DNA of 64,000 nucleotides, taken from contig NZ_FXAY01000003.1 in NCBI RefSeq assembly GCF_900177685.1, positions 310,001-374,000 on the forward strand, in the 5' to 3' direction. The number at the start of each line of letters is the position of its first letter. Positions within the stretch are counted from its first letter, which is position 1. The DNA comes from Agreia pratensis. Its GTDB lineage: Bacteria > Actinomycetota > Actinomycetes > Actinomycetales > Microbacteriaceae. The notes beneath the pieces were generated by a model. The model was not told the origin of the DNA and did not search any database. It was given only the letters and a program-made list of their open reading frames with translations. Positions 25,678-33,393 of this stretch are shown here, one piece after another. The position numbers were made by a program, and so were the translations under genes.

Positions 25678-25875
25678 GCGGAAGGTCAGCTCTGCAATCC
25701 GTGCAATAATTGAGAATCGAGACCCGTTCTTGTGCAGGGTGTCTGGTGATCCAGACACGAAAATCCAGCACTTGACATGGGTCTTAGTAATGTCAGAAAA
25801 CAACTCCAGCCTCCAATTGGCATCGGCTCGTGAGAGTCGAATCCACCCGGTGAGACCGGCGTGAAAGGTGATCGT
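25678..25875. other. Intergenic region upstream of sigA with a perfect hairpin
   Basis: This 198-nt gap holds an 8-bp perfect inverted repeat, GTGTCTGG-TGAT-CCAGACAC (25739-25758), and a TTGACA at 25772-25777. No convincing -10 lies at the right distance from the TTGACA. The hairpin has no T tract, so it may be an operator or a leader structure rather than a terminator of the MFS gene. Confidence 0.4.
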
Positions 25876-27216
25876 ATGGCCACCCGCAAATCAACCACAA
25901 CACTCGAACCCGTCGCTGACGAGCCTGCTGCAGCAGCAGCAAAGCCGGTGACGAAGGCCGCCGCCGCAAAGGCCGCTGCCGCCAAGACCACCGCGACGAA
26001 GGCTCCCGCAGCCAAAGCGGCGAAGGCTCCGACGAAGGCAGCCGCAGCGAAGACTGCTGCCGCTGCGAAGAAGGCCAAGTCCGCGGCAGAAGCCGACGGT
26101 CCCGGCGCCGACGATGACGACGCCGAAGCAGGCGCTGTAGTCGAGGTCGTCGTCGACGAAGACGAGACCACGACCGACGACGAGTCCGACGACGGATCGC
26201 CCAAGCCCGCGGCGGAGATCGTTCTGCCCGCCGGAGCGTTGGTCATCTCCGATGCCGACGACGACAGCGATGTTCCGGTCTACTCGACCGCGATCACCGG
26301 CGCAACCGCCGACCCGGTCAAGGACTACCTGAAGCAGATCGGCAAGGTCGCGCTTCTGAACGCGGCCGAAGAAGTCGAACTCGCCATGCGCATCGAGGCG
26401 GGACTCTTCGCCGAAGACACCATGTCGACGATGAGCGAAGCCGAGAAGAAGTCGGCCTACGGTCGTGAACTGCAGTGGGTCGCCCGCGACGGTGCTCGCG
26501 CCAAGAGCCACCTGCTCGGCGCCAACCTGCGTCTCGTCGTCAGCCTGGCAAAGCGCTACACGGGTCGCGGAATGCAGTTCCTCGACCTCATCCAGGAGGG
26601 AAACCTGGGCCTCATCCGTGCAGTCGAGAAGTTCGACTACACGAAGGGCTTCAAGTTCTCGACCTACGCGACCTGGTGGATCAGACAGGCGATCACCCGG
26701 GCCATGGCCGACCAGGCTCGCACGATCCGCATCCCCGTGCACATGGTCGAGGTCATCAACAAGCTCGCCCGCGTGCAGCGCCAGATGCTCCAGGATCTGG
26801 GACGCGAGCCTACGCCCGAAGAACTGTCGCGTGAACTCGACATGACCCCTGAGAAGGTCGTCGAGGTGCAGAAATACGGCCGCGAGCCCATCTCGCTGCA
26901 CACTCCTCTGGGTGAAGACGGCGACAGCGAGTTCGGCGATCTGATCGAAGACACCGAGGCGGTCGTTCCGGCCGACGCGGTGGGCTTCACGATGCTGCAG
27001 AAGCAGCTCGAGTCGCTGCTCGATTCTCTCTCCGAGCGCGAAGCGGGCGTCATCCGCATGCGGTTCGGCCTCGGCGACGGAATGCCGAAGACGCTCGACC
27101 AGATCGGTGACACCTTCGGCGTCACCCGTGAGCGCATCCGGCAAATCGAGTCGAAGACGATGGCGAAACTCCGTCACCCGTCGCGTTCGCAGTCTCTGCG
27201 CGACTACCTCGAGTAG
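25876..27216 (+). CDS. sigA: Primary RNA polymerase sigma factor
   Basis: The housekeeping sigma-70 factor, 446 residues. After a short start comes an Ala/Lys-rich tail resembling histone H1 (about residues 18-72), then a very acidic stretch (about 73-112), and then the conserved core. The core contains region 1.2 ([20 protein letters not shown]), region 2 ([20 protein letters not shown] and [17 protein letters not shown] for -10 recognition), region 3, and region 4 with the -35-binding helix [20 protein letters not shown]. The ATG at 25876 is used because AAAGGTG lies 7 nt upstream; a GTG 15 nt earlier is possible. A MurT-like gene begins 7 nt after the stop, so the cell-wall-like cluster is probably partly co-transcribed with sigA. 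Confidence 0.97.
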
Positions 27217-27223
27217 GCCGCTG

Positions 27224-28504
27224 ATGCGTTATATCGCGCCCGTTATCGTCGGTCGCGCGGTCCGGGCTGTCACCCGGGCCCGCGGCGGCGGATCGGCGCT
27301 GCCCGGCTACATCGTCAACAAGATGGCGCCGGGGTTCATCAAGAATGTGGTCGCCCAGTTCGAGTACGGCATCGTCTTTGTTCTCGGATCCAATGGCAAG
27401 TCGACGACCACCCACATGCTCACCGAGGTTCTCCGTGGGCACGGCCTGACGGTGTTCACGAACCCGTCCGGGGCGAACCTGCCACAGGGCATCTCGTCGG
27501 CGCTGTTGTCTGAAGTGGGCGTCACCGGAAAGTTGAAAGCAGACATCGGCATCCTCGAAGTCGATGAGGCATTCGCGCTCGAGTTATCGAAGACCCTGTT
27601 GCCATCGACCATTCTGATGCTCAATGTGCAGGTCGACCAGCTCTATCGGTTCTTCGAGACAGAGGTCGTCGCCGACATGATGCTCGACACGGCAGCGGTG
27701 GCGACACAGCACGTCATCAGCAATCGTGACGACGCCTATCTGTCGAAGATCGGCGAGATCCTGTCGAAGAAGGGTGCGGTCGTTCCTGACGTCACGTACT
27801 TCGGGGCGGCTCCGAAGCTCGTCGCCGACTCGGCGCACGGCCTCTTCAACGCGGCCAATCACCGCGAAGAAGCCTCGACTGCACCCATCGATGCACTCGC
27901 CGAACTCGAGTCGTGGGACAGCACCGGGGCCCGCATCCGAGTCGGGGGAGCGTTGGCCGACATCGCACTTCCTGCAAAGGGACTGCACTACGGCATCGAT
28001 GCTGCAGCGGCGCTCGCTACCGCCGCACAGGTGCTCGGCACCGAATTCGACCTCGCGAAAGCATCGGCAGCGTTCTCGTCGATGACACCGGCCTATGGGC
28101 GCGGCGAGCTGCTCGACTTCGGAAACGAGAAGGTGGAGTTCGTGATGTTCAAAAACGCCGCGAGCCTCCAACTCAACCTCGACGCGCTTCCCGCAGCGCC
28201 CGAGCAGGTCATGGTCGCCATCGACGAGGGAACTCCCGACGTCTCCTGGCTCTACGACATCGATTTTGCGCAGCTCGACCACGTCGACGTGCTCACGGGT
28301 GCGAAAGCCTGGCAGTTCGCACTCCGACTCGAGCACGAGGGGATTCCGGTCGGAACGATCGAACCCGACCTCAAGAAGGCCATCGAACTGATGCGTGCCC
28401 TCCCTGCACCCGCGACGGGTCACAAGACGTGGGTCGTCAACTACGAGCAGATGATGCTCGCGAGAAAGATCATCGGTTACGGCGACATGGAGGTCTCGTT
28501 TTGA
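27224..28504 (+). CDS. murT: MurT-like Mur ligase family protein lacking the zinc ribbon
   Basis: The 426-residue protein is a Mur-ligase-type ATPase of the MurT (DUF1727) group. In standard MurT/GatD the complex amidates the D-Glu alpha-carboxyl of lipid II, with MurT activating the carboxyl by phosphorylation. The P-loop VLGSNGKSTTTHML is intact near residues 53-66, and the C-terminal MurT-specific DVSWLYDIDF is recognisable. Known MurTs carry a four-cysteine zinc ribbon in the middle domain; this protein contains no cysteine at all. The usual NPxGxN motif is also blurred (FKNAASLQLN). It starts 7 nt after sigA and overlaps gatD by 4 nt. Carboxyl activation could survive, but the ammonia-dependent reaction is doubtful because its partner is altered too. 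Confidence 0.85.
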   Translation: MRYIAPVIVGRAVRAVTRARGGGSALPGYIVNKMAPGFIKNVVAQFEYGIVFVLGSNGKSTTTHMLTEVLRGHGLTVFTNPSGANLPQGISSALLSEVGVTGKLKADIGILEVDEAFALELSKTLLPSTILMLNVQVDQLYRFFETEVVADMMLDTAAVATQHVISNRDDAYLSKIGEILSKKGAVVPDVTYFGAAPKLVADSAHGLFNAANHREEASTAPIDALAELESWDSTGARIRVGGALADIALPAKGLHYGIDAAAALATAAQVLGTEFDLAKASAAFSSMTPAYGRGELLDFGNEKVEFVMFKNAASLQLNLDALPAAPEQVMVAIDEGTPDVSWLYDIDFAQLDHVDVLTGAKAWQFALRLEHEGIPVGTIEPDLKKAIELMRALPAPATGHKTWVVNYEQMMLARKIIGYGDMEVSF

Positions 28505-29250
28505 GTTCGTCATCCGCACACTCGGTCTCGATTCTGGAGCTGTACCCCGAACACCTCGAGGCAAGCGGTGAGCGTGGCAATGTCACAGCGCTGCGGGCGC
28601 GTCTCGAACGCGCGGGCCACCGGGTCGACGTCGTGCAGCACACCATCGGTCGACGCCTTCCGAAAGACTCCGACATCGTCGTGATCGGAAACGGTCCTGT
28701 CTCGGCTGTTCGTTCCGTCTACGCCGATCTCATGGAGAATGCAGCCGCTCTGCGTTCACTGGCAGACGACGGGGTTCCGTTCTTCGCTGTCGGCGCCGGG
28801 GCCGAACTTCTCGGCGGCGGCATCACACTTACCGATGGCACCGCCCTCACCGGGGTTGGGATCTTCCCGTTCTCGGCTCGACGCGGGGTGCCACGACAGG
28901 TCGGATACATCGTCGTCGAATCCGCGCACGGAACCGTCGTGGGCTTCGAAGACAACGCCTCGGAGTGGAACCTCGATTCGGGTGCCGTGCCCCTCGGTGT
29001 CGTCACCTCCGGTGGCGGCAATGGCAACGGTCGCGAGGGCGTCATCGCGGGCTCGTCCATCGCGACCCAGACGAAGGGGCCGGTTCTGCCGTTGAACCCT
29101 TCGCTCAGCGACGCCGTCATCCGGGCCGCGTTGGAACGCCGCGATGTCGCGTATGCGCCGTCGACAGCACACGCCGAGCTCGATCGTCTGGCCGCCAAGT
29201 CACGAGAAGTGATCGTTGCGAACGTCAAGAGCGTCTTCACCACGATCTAG
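28501..29250 (+). CDS. gatD: GatD-like glutamine amidotransferase homologue lacking Cys and His
   Basis: A 249-residue homologue of GatD, the glutaminase partner of MurT. The fold is clear: LELYPEHLEASGERGNVTAL at the N terminus, the IGNGP region, GFEDNASEW, and PVLPLNPSLSD near the end. In active GatD the nucleophile is a Cys in AVCGGYQLLG (Cys94 in S. aureus); here the segment reads AVGAGAELLG with Gly98 in its place. The catalytic His of the YLHGPLLPKNP motif (His189) is Lys192 here (QTKGPVLPLNP). Glutamine hydrolysis should be impossible. The start is TTG at 28501, overlapping the murT stop, with GGAGG 7 nt upstream. The protein may be a structural or substrate-binding partner of the MurT-like ligase. 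Confidence 0.85.
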   Translation: MSSSSAHSVSILELYPEHLEASGERGNVTALRARLERAGHRVDVVQHTIGRRLPKDSDIVVIGNGPVSAVRSVYADLMENAAALRSLADDGVPFFAVGAGAELLGGGITLTDGTALTGVGIFPFSARRGVPRQVGYIVVESAHGTVVGFEDNASEWNLDSGAVPLGVVTSGGGNGNGREGVIAGSSIATQTKGPVLPLNPSLSDAVIRAALERRDVAYAPSTAHAELDRLAAKSREVIVANVKSVFTTI

Positions 29251-29252
29251 TG

Positions 29253-29999
29253 ATGTCGCCAGCACTCACGAGTCCTCCGCCGCGCCGCGCCATGATCGAT
29301 CTCGAGATCGTGCGCAGCAACGCCCGCATCCTGATCGCTGACGCCTCACCCAACAGAATCGTCGTCGATCTTCGCGGCGACGCCTACGGCCACGGGGCAG
29401 CGGCTGTCGCGGCGTCCCTCGGCGCAGAGGCGGTCGATGCTTTTCTGGTGTCTCACGACGAGGCCGCACACGCCATTCGTGCGTCAGGCGTCTCGATTCC
29501 CGCCATCCAGAGCTTTCAGGCAGACCTCGCCGACGCAAGCCTCATCGGGCCAGAGATCTTCGGACTCGACACAGCGTCGGTTCCGGATCCCCGCGGTCTC
29601 GGTCTGCTGCCCGCTATGACTCTCTCCGCCCGCGTGCTCTCGACCAAGAAGGTCGGCGCCGACGAGGGCGTCTCCTACGGCTACGTGTACCGCACACAAA
29701 CTGCGACCAGGCTCGCCATGGTGTGCCTCGGCTACAGCGACGGCATCGACCGACACGCCTGCAATGGAGCCCGAGCGTGGTTCGCCGGCTCCACCCACCC
29801 TGTCGCCGGACGGGTTGCCATGGACGTCTTCATGCTCGACGTCGGTGACGATCCGGTCTCGCCGGGCGACGAGGTCGTGCTCTTCGGAGACGAAGCGAAG
29901 GGGTATCCGTCTCCGGTCGCGTGGGCCGCGAGCGTGGGAAAGTCCGCGGCGGAGGTCACGGCGTCGCTGGGCGACAGAATCGTTCGGAGTTACGTATGA
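29253..29999 (+). CDS. Short alanine-racemase-like subunit with Arg replacing the PLP lysine
   Basis: A 248-residue relative of alanine racemase (Alr normally 360-390). The N-terminal barrel is cut to roughly 120 residues and lacks the TGxxRxG and ANSA-type PLP-binding stretches. The lysine that binds PLP (VVKADAYGHG in Alr) is Arg41 here (DLRGDAYGHG). By contrast the C-terminal domain is well preserved: Tyr142 in GVSYGYVYRT (the Tyr265 equivalent), LGYSDGIDRH, and the Met190 loop GRVAMDVFMLDV. It cannot be a racemase alone, but it could supply the Tyr half of an active site to the next gene's product. It begins 2 nt after the gatD stop, and its stop overlaps the next start (ATGA). It is not a frameshift remnant, since both parts of the fold are present. 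Confidence 0.85.
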   Translation: MSPALTSPPPRRAMIDLEIVRSNARILIADASPNRIVVDLRGDAYGHGAAAVAASLGAEAVDAFLVSHDEAAHAIRASGVSIPAIQSFQADLADASLIGPEIFGLDTASVPDPRGLGLLPAMTLSARVLSTKKVGADEGVSYGYVYRTQTATRLAMVCLGYSDGIDRHACNGARAWFAGSTHPVAGRVAMDVFMLDVGDDPVSPGDEVVLFGDEAKGYPSPVAWAASVGKSAAEVTASLGDRIVRSYV

Positions 30000-31069
30000 C
30001 GATCTCACGAGGCGAGCTTCTCATCGATCTCGAGGCGCTGCGCCACAACCTCGATGTGCTGACAGCGCAGGTGGCGCCGTCTCAGGTGATGGTCGTGGTG
30101 AAGAACGACGCCTATGGGCACGGACTGGTCGATGTGACGAAAGCTGCCGTCGAATCGGGAATCTGCTGGATCGGTGCTCTCGACGTGCCCACTTCGCTGT
30201 CACTGCGCGAGGCCGGCATCTCGTCGCCCACGCGGATCTTCGCATGGCTGCTCGACCCCGCCGAAGACCTCGAGCCCGCGATCTCGGCATCGATCGACCT
30301 GGGTATTTCGACCGTCGAGCAGCTGAACACCATCGCTGCTTCGTCGGCTGCGACCCCCGCTCGAGTTCACCTCAAGATCGACACAGGGCTGCACCGCAAC
30401 GGCGCGACACCGGAAGACTGGCCTGAACTCGTGGCCCGTGCGCGGGCCTTGGAGGATCAGGGCACCCTCGAGATCGTCGCTGTGTGGACCCACATCGCGG
30501 AGGCCGACGACCACGAGGACTCGCTCTCGATCGCCCGCTTCGAAGAGGCCGTGGCCGTGGCTCATGATCTGGGCGTGCCGTCGCCTCTGCGACACCTGGC
30601 GGCCAGCGCTGCCGGCTTCGCCCGATCCGACGCACGGTTCGACCTTGTACGCTTCGGCGCGTTCGTCTACGGACTGCCGCCCGGCGACGGGCCCAGCGCC
30701 GAGAGCATGGGTCTGCGTCAGGTGATGACGCTCAGCGCGCCCGTCTCGGTCGTCGAGACGCTTCCGGATGGCCGCCGCCGGGCATCCATCGACCTCGGCT
30801 TCGCCGATGGTCTCTCGACCCTGGCGCCCGGGCGCATCGGCGTCGCCGTTCACGGCCGACGGCATCCGCTCATCGACCCGCTGGAGGTCGACAGGGCCTG
30901 GTTCGACCTTGCCGACGATAACGAGGTCGCCGTCGGCGATCTGGTGACTGTGTGGGGCGATGGCAGCGCGGGGGAGCCGACCCTTCAGGAGTGGGGCGAC
31001 GCCACCGGAACGATGTCTGAGGAACTGGTCGTGCGGCTGAGCCCACGCATTCCTCGACGCGTCATCTGA
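29996..31069 (+). CDS. Alanine-racemase-like subunit with the PLP lysine but no catalytic tyrosine segment
   Basis: A 357-residue alanine racemase homologue with a full PLP barrel: Lys36 in VVVKNDAYGHG, the Arg-containing HLKIDTGLHRNG, the His in WTHIAEAD, ASAAGFARS, and the DLVRFGAFVYG motif whose Arg contacts the PLP ring nitrogen. In the C-terminal domain the stretch that normally carries the catalytic Tyr (GxxVSYGxxW/Y) is missing: VVETLPDGRRRASIDLGFADG runs straight across residues 252-271. The Met loop GRVSMDQ reads DPLEVDR. This is the mirror image of the defect in the preceding protein. Alr forms one active site from Lys of one subunit and Tyr of the other, so a heterodimer is likely. 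Start and stop overlap by 4 nt with the upstream gene, favouring equal production. Confidence 0.85.
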   Translation: MTISRGELLIDLEALRHNLDVLTAQVAPSQVMVVVKNDAYGHGLVDVTKAAVESGICWIGALDVPTSLSLREAGISSPTRIFAWLLDPAEDLEPAISASIDLGISTVEQLNTIAASSAATPARVHLKIDTGLHRNGATPEDWPELVARARALEDQGTLEIVAVWTHIAEADDHEDSLSIARFEEAVAVAHDLGVPSPLRHLAASAAGFARSDARFDLVRFGAFVYGLPPGDGPSAESMGLRQVMTLSAPVSVVETLPDGRRRASIDLGFADGLSTLAPGRIGVAVHGRRHPLIDPLEVDRAWFDLADDNEVAVGDLVTVWGDGSAGEPTLQEWGDATGTMSEELVVRLSPRIPRRVI

Positions 31070-31100: not shown

Positions 31101-33185
31101 TCAGGTGTCGATGCGCTCTCGCGACATGCCCTCTGAACCGGCGATGATGAACTCCTTGCGTGGGGCCACGTCGTCTCCCATCAAGAGGTCGAACGTGCGC
31201 TCGGCACGCTCCGCGTCGCTGACCCCCACCCGGCGCAGGGTGCGATGGCGCTTGTCCATCGTGGTCGTCGCGAGCTGATCGGCATCCATCTCGCCGAGAC
31301 CTTTGTAGCGCTGAATCGGGTCCTGGTAGCGCTTCTTAGCCTTGTCGAGCTGGGCGAGCAGCGTGTGCAGTTCGGCCTCTGAATAGGTGTAGATCGTCTC
31401 GTTGGGCTTCGTTCCCGGGTTCATGATCACGACGCGGTGCAGCGGAGGCACGGCGGCGTACACCCGACCGTCCTCAACGAGCGGCCTCATGTACCGGAAG
31501 AACAGGGTAAGCAGCAGGGTCCTGATGTGCGCGCCATCGACGTCGGCGTCGCTCATCAGGATGATCTTGCCGTAGCGGGCAGTCGACAGGTCGAACGACC
31601 GCCCCGACCCAGCTCCGATGACCTGGATGATCGAGGCGCACTCGGTGTTGCCGAGCATGTCCGATACAGATGCCTTCTGAACATTGAGGATCTTGCCTCG
31701 AATCGGCAGAAGCGCCTGGAACTCGCTGTTGCGGGCAAGCTTCGCCGTTCCCAGCGCCGAGTCTCCCTCGACGATCATCAACTCGCTGAGGGCGACATCG
31801 TTGGAGCGGCAATCGACCAGCTTCGCAGGCAATGACGACGACTCGAGGGCATTCTTGCGGCGCTGAGTCTCTTTGTGCGCCCGAGCGGAGATGCGCGACT
31901 TCATCTCGGCGACGACCTTGTCGAGCACCAGCGCGGTCTGAGCCTTGTCGTCGCGCTTCGTCGACTCGAATCTCTCCTTCAGGCCTTTCGTGACGACCTG
32001 AGACACGATGTTGCGCACGGCGGGCGTTCCGAGAATCTCCTTCGTCTGGCCCTCGAACTGCGGCTCGGGCAGGCGCACGGTGAGAACAGCGGTCAGCCCT
32101 GCGAGGACATCGTCTTTCTCGAGCTTGTCGGTGCCTGCCTTGAGCCTGCGCGCATTTGCCTCGACGGTCTGTCGCAGGAACTTCAGAAGACCCGCTTCGA
32201 AACCGGCCTGATGCGTTCCGCCCTTCGGCGTCGCGATGATGTTCACAAAACTGCGGAACGTCGTCTCGTAGCCTGTTCCCCAGCGCAGGGCCAGGTCGAC
32301 CTCGCACTCCCGACTGAGCTCCGTCGGCACCATGGCGCCCTGGGGTGAGAGCACGGGAACCGTCTCGGTGAACGATCCGCTTCCCTGGAGCCGCCACGTC
32401 TCGGTGACTCCGGAATCCGTCGCGAGGTGTTCGACGAACTCCGCGATCCCTCCGTCGAACCGGAAAGCATCGCGGCGCACTTCGTCGCCGCGTTCGTCGG
32501 TGATGCCGATCGACAGGCCCGGCACGAGGAACGCGGTCTGGCGGGCTCGATCGAAGAGCTCTTCTGTCTGGAAGCGCGCTGTCGAGCTGAAGATCTGCCG
32601 GTCGGCCCAATAGCGGATGCGCGTTCCCGTGACGCCGCGCTTGACCTTGCCGACGATGCGGAGTTCGCTGCCGTTCTCGAACGGGGTGAACGGTGCGTCC
32701 GGTGTCGGTGTCGAACCGGAGTCGTCGAAGACGCCCGGCTCTCCGCGATGAAACGACATGGCGTAGGTCTTGCCGTCTCGGTCGACCTCGACATCGAGGC
32801 GCTCCGACAGAGCGTTGACGACAGACGCACCGACGCCGTGCAGACCACCGGATGCCGCATACGATCCCGAGCCGAACTTTCCGCCGGCGTGCAGCTTGGT
32901 GAAGACGACCTCGACGCCGGACAGGCCGGTTTTCGGCTCGATGTCGACGGGGATGCCGCGTGCGCGGTCACGAACCTCGACGCTCGAATCGGCGTGCAGC
33001 TGGATTTCGATCTCCGAGCCGTGGCCACCCAGAGCCTCGTCGACGGAATTGTCGATGATCTCCCAGACGCAGTGCATCAGACCGCGGGAATCCGTGGATC
33101 CGATGTACATGCCAGGGCGCTTGCGCACAGCCTCGAGACCCTCGAGTACAGACAGGTGCCGTGCGGAATAGTCGGCCGATGCCAC
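31101..33185 (-). CDS. parE: DNA topoisomerase IV subunit B
   Basis: The ATPase subunit of a type IIA topoisomerase, 694 residues. It has the GHKL ATPase motifs (EIIDNSVDEALGGHG with the catalytic Glu/Asn helix, and DRARGIPVDI, SGGLHGVGASVVNALS), the transducer domain, and a TOPRIM domain with MIVEGDSALGTAK and DADVDGAHIRTLLLT. It is shorter than proteobacterial GyrB inserts allow and pairs with the ParC-like gene 0.5 kb away; actinobacterial gyrB/gyrA normally sit at the replication origin, so topoisomerase IV is the better call. I chose the GTG at 33185 because GGGAG lies 6 nt upstream, over the TTG at 33197. Confidence 0.9.
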   Translation of the reverse strand: MASADYSARHLSVLEGLEAVRKRPGMYIGSTDSRGLMHCVWEIIDNSVDEALGGHGSEIEIQLHADSSVEVRDRARGIPVDIEPKTGLSGVEVVFTKLHAGGKFGSGSYAASGGLHGVGASVVNALSERLDVEVDRDGKTYAMSFHRGEPGVFDDSGSTPTPDAPFTPFENGSELRIVGKVKRGVTGTRIRYWADRQIFSSTARFQTEELFDRARQTAFLVPGLSIGITDERGDEVRRDAFRFDGGIAEFVEHLATDSGVTETWRLQGSGSFTETVPVLSPQGAMVPTELSRECEVDLALRWGTGYETTFRSFVNIIATPKGGTHQAGFEAGLLKFLRQTVEANARRLKAGTDKLEKDDVLAGLTAVLTVRLPEPQFEGQTKEILGTPAVRNIVSQVVTKGLKERFESTKRDDKAQTALVLDKVVAEMKSRISARAHKETQRRKNALESSSLPAKLVDCRSNDVALSELMIVEGDSALGTAKLARNSEFQALLPIRGKILNVQKASVSDMLGNTECASIIQVIGAGSGRSFDLSTARYGKIILMSDADVDGAHIRTLLLTLFFRYMRPLVEDGRVYAAVPPLHRVVIMNPGTKPNETIYTYSEAELHTLLAQLDKAKKRYQDPIQRYKGLGEMDADQLATTTMDKRHRTLRRVGVSDAERAERTFDLLMGDDVAPRKEFIIAGSEGMSRERIDT

Positions 33186-33393
33186 GTGTTCTCCCAAATA
33201 AGCGTCGGGCCTATTCGATCAGGGCCCAGCGATCAACTGTAGTTTCCCCCCGGGGCGGGCCGGTCCACCGACACGGAAGAGCCGATTCGACGTACGCGCA
33301 GAGCGAAACACGGGCGAAAGCGGCACCCGCAAAACCTACCCGTGATTTGATAACTAGATCGGTTGTCGAGCAGCGAGGCGTGAGGAGCATCAC
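33186..33393. promoter_or_regulatory. Divergent promoter region between parE and the DUF7455 gene
   Basis: On the minus strand TTGATC, a 17-nt spacer and TAGGCC form a candidate parE promoter (about 33238 to 33209). On the plus strand the AT-rich TTTGATAACTAG near 33346-33357 is a candidate -10 region for the DUF7455 gene. Nothing else is recognised. Confidence 0.4.

Follow-up and report, generated by a model that had tools for sequence, protein, structure and literature searches.

Two alanine-racemase homologues with complementary losses in Agreia pratensis: a probable obligate heterodimer with a single active site

The window analysed here, a stretch of 64,000 nucleotides from Agreia pratensis (source genome of 3.58 Mb in 10 contigs, 99.88% complete), contains two adjacent genes for alanine-racemase homologues, recognized by Pfam and by alignments. 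They end a tight run of genes on the forward strand. A murT-like Mur ligase gene (27224-28504, its start codon being our choice) is overlapped over 4 nt by a gatD-like glutamine amidotransferase gene (28501-29250), which stops 2 nt before the first racemase homologue. The latter, hereafter B, is a short protein of 248 residues (29253-29999, forward strand), and the second, hereafter A, is a long protein of 357 residues with a full barrel (29996-31069, forward strand). The conserved flanks are an RpoD-type sigma factor gene on the left (25861-27216, forward strand) and a gene for a parE/gyrB-type topoisomerase subunit on the right (31101-33197, reverse strand), both named from sequence. Re-reading of the sequence gave the same coordinates and lengths for the two homologues as an earlier note on this DNA, and the 4-nt overlap that it described between B and A is borne out and reads ATGA.

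The same note had depicted B as a racemase homologue with Arg41 in place of the PLP lysine, a retained catalytic tyrosine and methionine, and a barrel of about half the normal size, and each of these features is found. Arg41 is encoded at 29373-29375, Tyr142 of the GVSYG motif at 29676-29678 and Met190 at 29820-29822. The barrel stub covers positions 1-71 of the 220 of Pfam Ala_racemase_N, the first third of this profile, and the C-domain is whole (Ala_racemase_C 1-127 of 127). An AlphaFold model of B, computed from a 22-row alignment (pLDDT 91.3, pTM 0.88), has the S. lavendulae Alr 1vfh as its best PDB match, with a TM score of 0.87 normalised by B. The predicted fold of B is that of a racemase minus half its barrel. 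Two residues before the lost lysine, Asp39 is invariant in 16 aligned B proteins, in which the DAYGHG motif is also nearly invariant despite the halved barrel.

A was likewise correctly described as keeping the PLP lysine, Lys36 (codon 30101-30103), on a full barrel (Ala_racemase_N 1-220), and as lacking both the catalytic tyrosine segment (no VSYG) and the Met loop. Its C-domain matches Ala_racemase_C 30-126, the first 29 positions being gone, and Glu342 (31019-31021) occupies the position of BsAlr Tyr354. The Pfam domain coverage of the two proteins thus makes their lost pieces complementary, and by Pfam and the model of B neither of them is a single chain with a full barrel and a full C-domain, as in Alr. 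The TIGR00492 (alr) model gives A 192 bits, above its cut-off of 168, and B 118.2 bits, below it. This constitutes an annotation pitfall, as the NCBI alr model labels A alanine racemase though A alone would be half a site.

The check for a standard alr elsewhere in the genome, which the earlier note had proposed, revealed none but a second A-B pair instead. The source genome has four PF00842 matches, two in each pair, and the idea of a complete Alr elsewhere was therefore rejected; two further PF01168 matches (C1:24930 and C6:143672) have no PF00842 match. In the second pair, A1-B1 (C8:690488-692298), the long gene leads and the two genes once more overlap by 4 nt. It stands at the canonical place of alr, in the order glmS ... 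A1-B1-tsaE-tsaB-rimI-tsaD (gene names assigned from the sequences). The gene order is A-B at this glmS-tsaE locus, called locus 1, and B-A at the window-type locus, called locus 2. VVKANAYGHG is present and VSYG absent in A1, and B1 has VIDMTADAYGHG (no lysine), VSYGFVYRT and RIAMDQ. Both pairs were found in 7 of the 8 genomes of the genus, and in the eighth (G154, in 260 contigs) two complete Alr genes stand in tandem instead.

To characterize the division of the active site between A and B, 191 Alr-like units from the fetched loci were aligned to S. lavendulae Alr, whose numbering is used for the counts, and their active-site residues were counted. Without three units of loci L171 (cut) and L173 (frameshifted), the counts cover 45 A, 45 B and 98 complete enzymes; the A genes of L111 and L114, cut by contig ends, were included. 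Since Lys, Tyr and Met served to assign the units to classes, the counts of these three residues are partly set by construction; the other residues are independent of the sorting. A keeps Lys38 and Arg136 in 45/45 units and Tyr42, Lys129, His168 and Arg224 in 44/45 each, with Met318' in 0/45, Arg295' in 2/45, Arg315' in 7/45 and Tyr270' in a single unit (L193), by eye a misalignment. B keeps Tyr270' and Met318' in 45/45, Arg295' in 44/45, Arg315' in 42/45, Asp319' in 41/45 and Tyr289' in 41/45, the other four having Phe. Arg136 is found in none of the 45 B units and neither is Lys38, at whose place there are 23 Arg, 6 Thr, 3 Ser, 3 Ala and 10 gaps. Complete enzymes have Lys38, Arg136, His168, Arg224, Tyr270', Arg295' and Met318' in 98/98 each. 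The split is imperfect, since Asp319' persists in 32 and Tyr289' in 18 of the 45 A units, and Tyr42 in 31 of the 45 B units. Units missing both sides of the active site were absent from those collected, a collection that such proteins might escape. Passages in two crystal papers (PMC3485190, PMC3245724) place Tyr265', Tyr284', Met312' and Arg290' of Alr in the partner subunit and Tyr43, Arg219 and Tyr354 in the lysine subunit, with Lys38, Tyr270' and Tyr361 (= Tyr354) as equivalents in S. lavendulae Alr. By these assignments and the residue counts, A represents the lysine side and B the tyrosine side, and the main losses of both fall on one and the same site of the homodimer.

Matches to the B profile that run from the barrel stub to the C-terminus were found in at least 74 of 398 genomes of the Microbacteriaceae (GTDB), a common family of soil and plant bacteria, and in at least 24 of its 85 genera, a lower bound that misses the shortest forms and in which the absence of the lysine was checked in the fetched loci only. 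An order-wide search, covering 198 genomes of which at least 14 are Microbacteriaceae, gave among the matches listed 15 genomes of other families at E<=1e-50, a threshold that weaker B forms would escape. These match only from position 55 of the profile on and, judged by sequence, look like complete Alr.

The earlier note had proposed a search for co-occurrence in Microbacteriaceae and had regarded the regular absence of one gene as contrary to its reading. In each of the 24 window-type neighbourhoods that were fetched, spread over 22 GTDB genera, the B gene immediately precedes A on the same strand and parE lies within the stretch; murT-gatD stands beside the pair in 16 of them, three of the other eight being cut by contig ends. 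Both A and B, or a fusion, were found in 30/30 census loci drawn from the B-profile search. A regular absence of one gene was not observed in the fetched loci, and no A without B was seen in the genomes tabulated from PF00842, a non-exhaustive set.

In several lineages the two halves are joined. Single-frame A-B fusions occur in Gulosibacter macacae (G020) and others of the GTDB genus g21, and in g74, and both pairs of another genome (G238) are fused, as A-B at locus 1 (671-codon frame) and as B-A at locus 2 (832-codon frame). The AlphaFold model of the Gulosibacter macacae fusion reached a pLDDT of 75.2 and a pTM of 0.60 from an alignment of only 8 rows, too uncertain to speak for or against the expected arrangement. 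In g50, A is fused in one frame to a C-domain and TsaE, and Candidatus Agrococcus pullicola (a metagenome assembly), which groups with g50, has A followed by a separate protein made of the C-domain and TsaE. A tyrosine-bearing racemase C-domain joined to TsaE, the tRNA t6A ATPase (named from sequence), was observed at loci L131, L026 and L193. Neither Gulosibacter macacae nor Candidatus Agrococcus pullicola has a PF00842 match beyond the pair or fusion. In G015, a single contig of 927,303 bases that we take to be T. whipplei, the PF01168 matches at E<=0.001 are confined to a window-type pair. The Alr of Pseudolysinimonas kribbensis (L173:9647-11107), the only PF00842 match of its genome, lies in two frames, as if frameshifted.

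These data bear on whether A could be active alone, for example as a homodimer using another acid/base residue, with B as a regulatory or chaperone-like pseudoenzyme. The whole PLP side is indeed kept in A, and the invariant Asp39 and nearly invariant DAYGHG of B could be a regulatory feature. However, a regulator would not need the catalytic residues that act in trans, which B retains almost without exception (Tyr270' in 45, Met318' in 45 and Arg295' in 44 of 45), and the fusions and the constant pairing also argue against independent action of A, which we thus consider very unlikely.

We then examined the origins of the two proteins. The A tree was built from 97 lysine-bearing units of the 191; left out were the B units, the rows beyond L171 from outside the family (L193 excepted) and loci L018, L019, L111, L114, L136 (a good fusion), L171 and L173. 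The A of the window falls in a clade of 40 proteins (100/99) made of 28 A-type proteins and 12 complete Alr2 of tandem loci. The A1 of Agreia groups with the alr1 products of Subtercola, G007, G154 and G011 (100/96), and the A halves of fusions form a separate clade with the Agrococcus forms (99/99). As A-type units sit in three clades of the tree, A-type proteins would have arisen at least three times, provided that the lost tyrosine segment was never regained. The tree of the C-domain has 131 columns and many open forks. In it, the B1 of Agreia falls within the complete Alr2 of tandem loci (100/92), and another group (96/98) unites 26 of 28 window-type B with all 9 fusion-type B; the B proteins of G015 and L163 lie elsewhere, on long branches. 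A common origin of the family-wide B and the Agreia B1 was rejected, since B1 nests in Alr2, apart from most window-type B. Tandems of complete alr1-alr2 are present in Subtercola, Planctomonas, Curtobacterium and the Agreia-genus genome with two complete Alr genes (G154). As A1 joins alr1 and B1 joins Alr2 in the trees, A1-B1 of Agreia seems to derive from such a tandem, still complete in Subtercola.

Comparison of the window genome with five other Agreia-group genomes gave pairwise dN/dS values of 0.11-0.30 for A1, B1, A2 and B2 (Nei-Gojobori, 20 comparisons, dS up to 1.19). All four Agreia genes are under purifying selection. Pieces are missing from both proteins, as would be expected of decaying duplicates or of an assembly error, but the B profile is matched over its full length in at least 74 of 398 genomes and at least 24 of 85 genera, dN/dS stays within 0.11-0.30 and the kept residues are nearly invariant, which leaves this explanation a negligible probability. 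Decay was rejected on dN/dS, and chance on the residue counts and on the recurrence of the pattern, seen in 45 A and 45 B units.

A and B are thus very probably an obligate heterodimer with one active site. The earlier note had read the pair as a heterodimer with one hybrid site, and this reading is supported by the residue partition, the constant pairing, the fusions, purifying selection and the genomes whose PF00842 proteins all belong to pairs or fusions. A would bind PLP through Lys36 and provide the barrel side of the site, and B would contribute Tyr142, Tyr161, Arg167, Arg187 and Met190 from its C-terminal domain. The opposite site, formed by the barrel of B and the C-domain of A, would be dead and trimmed in both proteins, so that each dimer would work at a single site where the homodimer has two. 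That A and B assemble, bind PLP and act as a racemase is what we infer from these sequence features.

The pair might also assemble and bind PLP without being a racemase any longer, acting as a decarboxylase, a transaminase-like enzyme or a sensor, and the glutamate of the window A at the gating tyrosine position would fit such a change. Against this, both acid/base residues of racemases (Lys and Tyr) are retained across the pair. Agreia, Gulosibacter macacae, Candidatus Agrococcus pullicola and G015 should moreover all need D-alanine, and they have no PF00842 protein other than such pairs or fusions. A loss of racemase function therefore appears highly improbable.

With the heterodimeric racemase as the favoured reading, we addressed its substrate. 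According to PMC3485190, Tyr354 gates Alr for alanine, and racemases for lysine or of broad specificity have Thr or Ala in its place. This position is Asp or Glu in 40/40 proteins of the window clade, including 28/28 A-type proteins, and the gating tyrosine is kept in A1 and in the A part of fusions. Outside both loci, two full-length Alr-like proteins have His at this position (L030 and L040, in G139 and G040). The Asp or Glu of window-type A suggests that the substrate is perhaps not alanine; the acidic residue could bind a substrate with a basic side chain, and a new substrate, as the earlier note had envisaged, is plausible on this sequence feature. A1-B1, at the glmS-tsaE locus and with the gating tyrosine, is likely the alanine racemase of this genome, and the window pair, with its gating glutamate and its place beside murT-gatD, is likely a racemase of other or wider substrate range that serves peptidoglycan.

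We compared the distribution of the window-type pair with the diamino acids of the cell wall. Statements in PMC5945732 give L-Dab connected to D-Orn for Agreia and DAB of type B2gamma for Subtercola, and a table of PMC7033078 gives Lys and Orn for Salinibacterium and L-DAB for Compostimonas. The window-type pair or a complete Alr2 is present in Agreia, Subtercola, Planctomonas and Curtobacterium and, by PF00842 pattern, also in Humibacter and three Microbacterium. By the same pattern, neither is present in two Salinibacterium, two Cryobacterium, Compostimonas, Rathayibacter, Leucobacter, Pseudolysinimonas, Gulosibacter and Agrococcus. The wall of Curtobacterium has D-Orn, and those of Cryobacterium, Rathayibacter and Leucobacter have D-Dab. 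A rule by which the window-type pair goes with a D-diamino acid in the wall gives mixed results on the named genomes, Curtobacterium fitting it and Cryobacterium, Rathayibacter, Leucobacter and Salinibacterium (Orn) not, and we keep it as a hypothesis only.

This uneven mapping of window-type pairs and Alr2 on any one peptidoglycan diamino acid speaks for the window pair being a plain second alanine racemase with unchanged substrate. The same holds for G015, whose window-type pair has Asp at the gating position and, as the sole PF01168 match at E<=0.001, may have to supply D-Ala. Yet Asp or Glu replaces the gating tyrosine in all 40 proteins of the clade, Lyr and Bar are also without that tyrosine (Thr391 and Ala393; PMC3485190), and Agreia and the tandem genomes that were read have another Alr-type enzyme with the tyrosine. 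We give the unchanged substrate a substantial chance, short of an even one.

The neighbours of the window pair led us to consider its possible role in the cell wall. The GatD of the window has Gly and Lys at the positions of Cys94 and His189 of S. aureus GatD. Among 21 Microbacteriaceae rows (the window and the 20 of 31 loci examined that held GatD, five rows being Agreia), the cysteine is absent in 21/21, replaced by Gly, Ala or Ser, and the histidine is kept in 11. A second search gave the same absence in 3/3 further Microbacteriaceae genomes, with the histidine kept in 2. GatD is thus without the glutaminase cysteine in 24/24 Microbacteriaceae genes (window 28501-29250; L095-L120; L254-L281). 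Elsewhere in the order, 24/24 rows, from 23 genomes outside this family, keep both residues; some of these rows may be CobQ-like paralogues. MurT normally has a Cys-rich ribbon; the window MurT (27224-28504) contains no cysteine, and the ribbon is therefore absent. The alpha-carboxyl of D-Glu bears an amino acid, not an amide, in type-B peptidoglycan, and the loss of the GatD glutaminase makes sense in this light if MurT uses an amino acid. A tentative and rather doubtful proposal is thus that murT-gatD-B-A of Microbacteriaceae forms a type-B cross-bridge module, in which MurT ligates an amino acid and A-B makes a D-diamino acid. GatD would have lost its glutaminase nucleophile and MurT would have stopped amidating D-Glu with ammonia. 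MurT would instead make the bond that defines type-B peptidoglycan, joining an amino acid to the alpha-carboxyl of D-Glu, and the A-B racemase would supply the D-diamino acid, D-ornithine in Agreia. The parts of the literature that were searched yielded no candidate enzyme for the D-diamino acid of the type-B cross-bridge; if the window pair does make it, an enzyme would be named for this cross-bridge.

Alr is essential for the cell wall, serves as an antibacterial target and is the classic case of a symmetric enzyme whose subunits share their active sites. On at least three occasions it seems to have given rise to an asymmetric heterodimer that is obligate and has a single site. The probable starting state, the tandem of complete alr1-alr2, survives beside the end states, which are the separate pair, the fusion and the C-domain only. 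The system thus offers a natural experiment in how complementary loss may lock two paralogues together.

Alr/DadX (EC 5.1.1.1, TIGR00492; 1VFH and Geobacillus 1SFT) shares with A-B the fold, the PLP side, both catalytic residues and sites shared between subunits. Known Alr are described in PMC3485190 as homodimers with two complete sites, whereas A-B would consist of unlike subunits with one complete site. Lyr (4DZA) and Bar (4DYJ) have the same fold and lack the Tyr354 equivalent, as does the window A, but passages of the same paper (PMC3485190) describe them as dimers of one protein, with Thr or Ala at that position where Asp or Glu stands here. We found no heterodimeric or split alanine racemase in the literature searched, outside which most subscription journals lay. 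Serine palmitoyltransferase (LCB1/LCB2) and glycine decarboxylase (GcvPA/GcvPB) are PLP enzymes with unlike subunits, one of which is without the PLP lysine; they differ from A-B in having the type I fold and in not being racemases. In the deoxyhypusine synthase of trypanosomes, an unrelated NAD enzyme, two complementary paralogues that are weak singly give a working enzyme.
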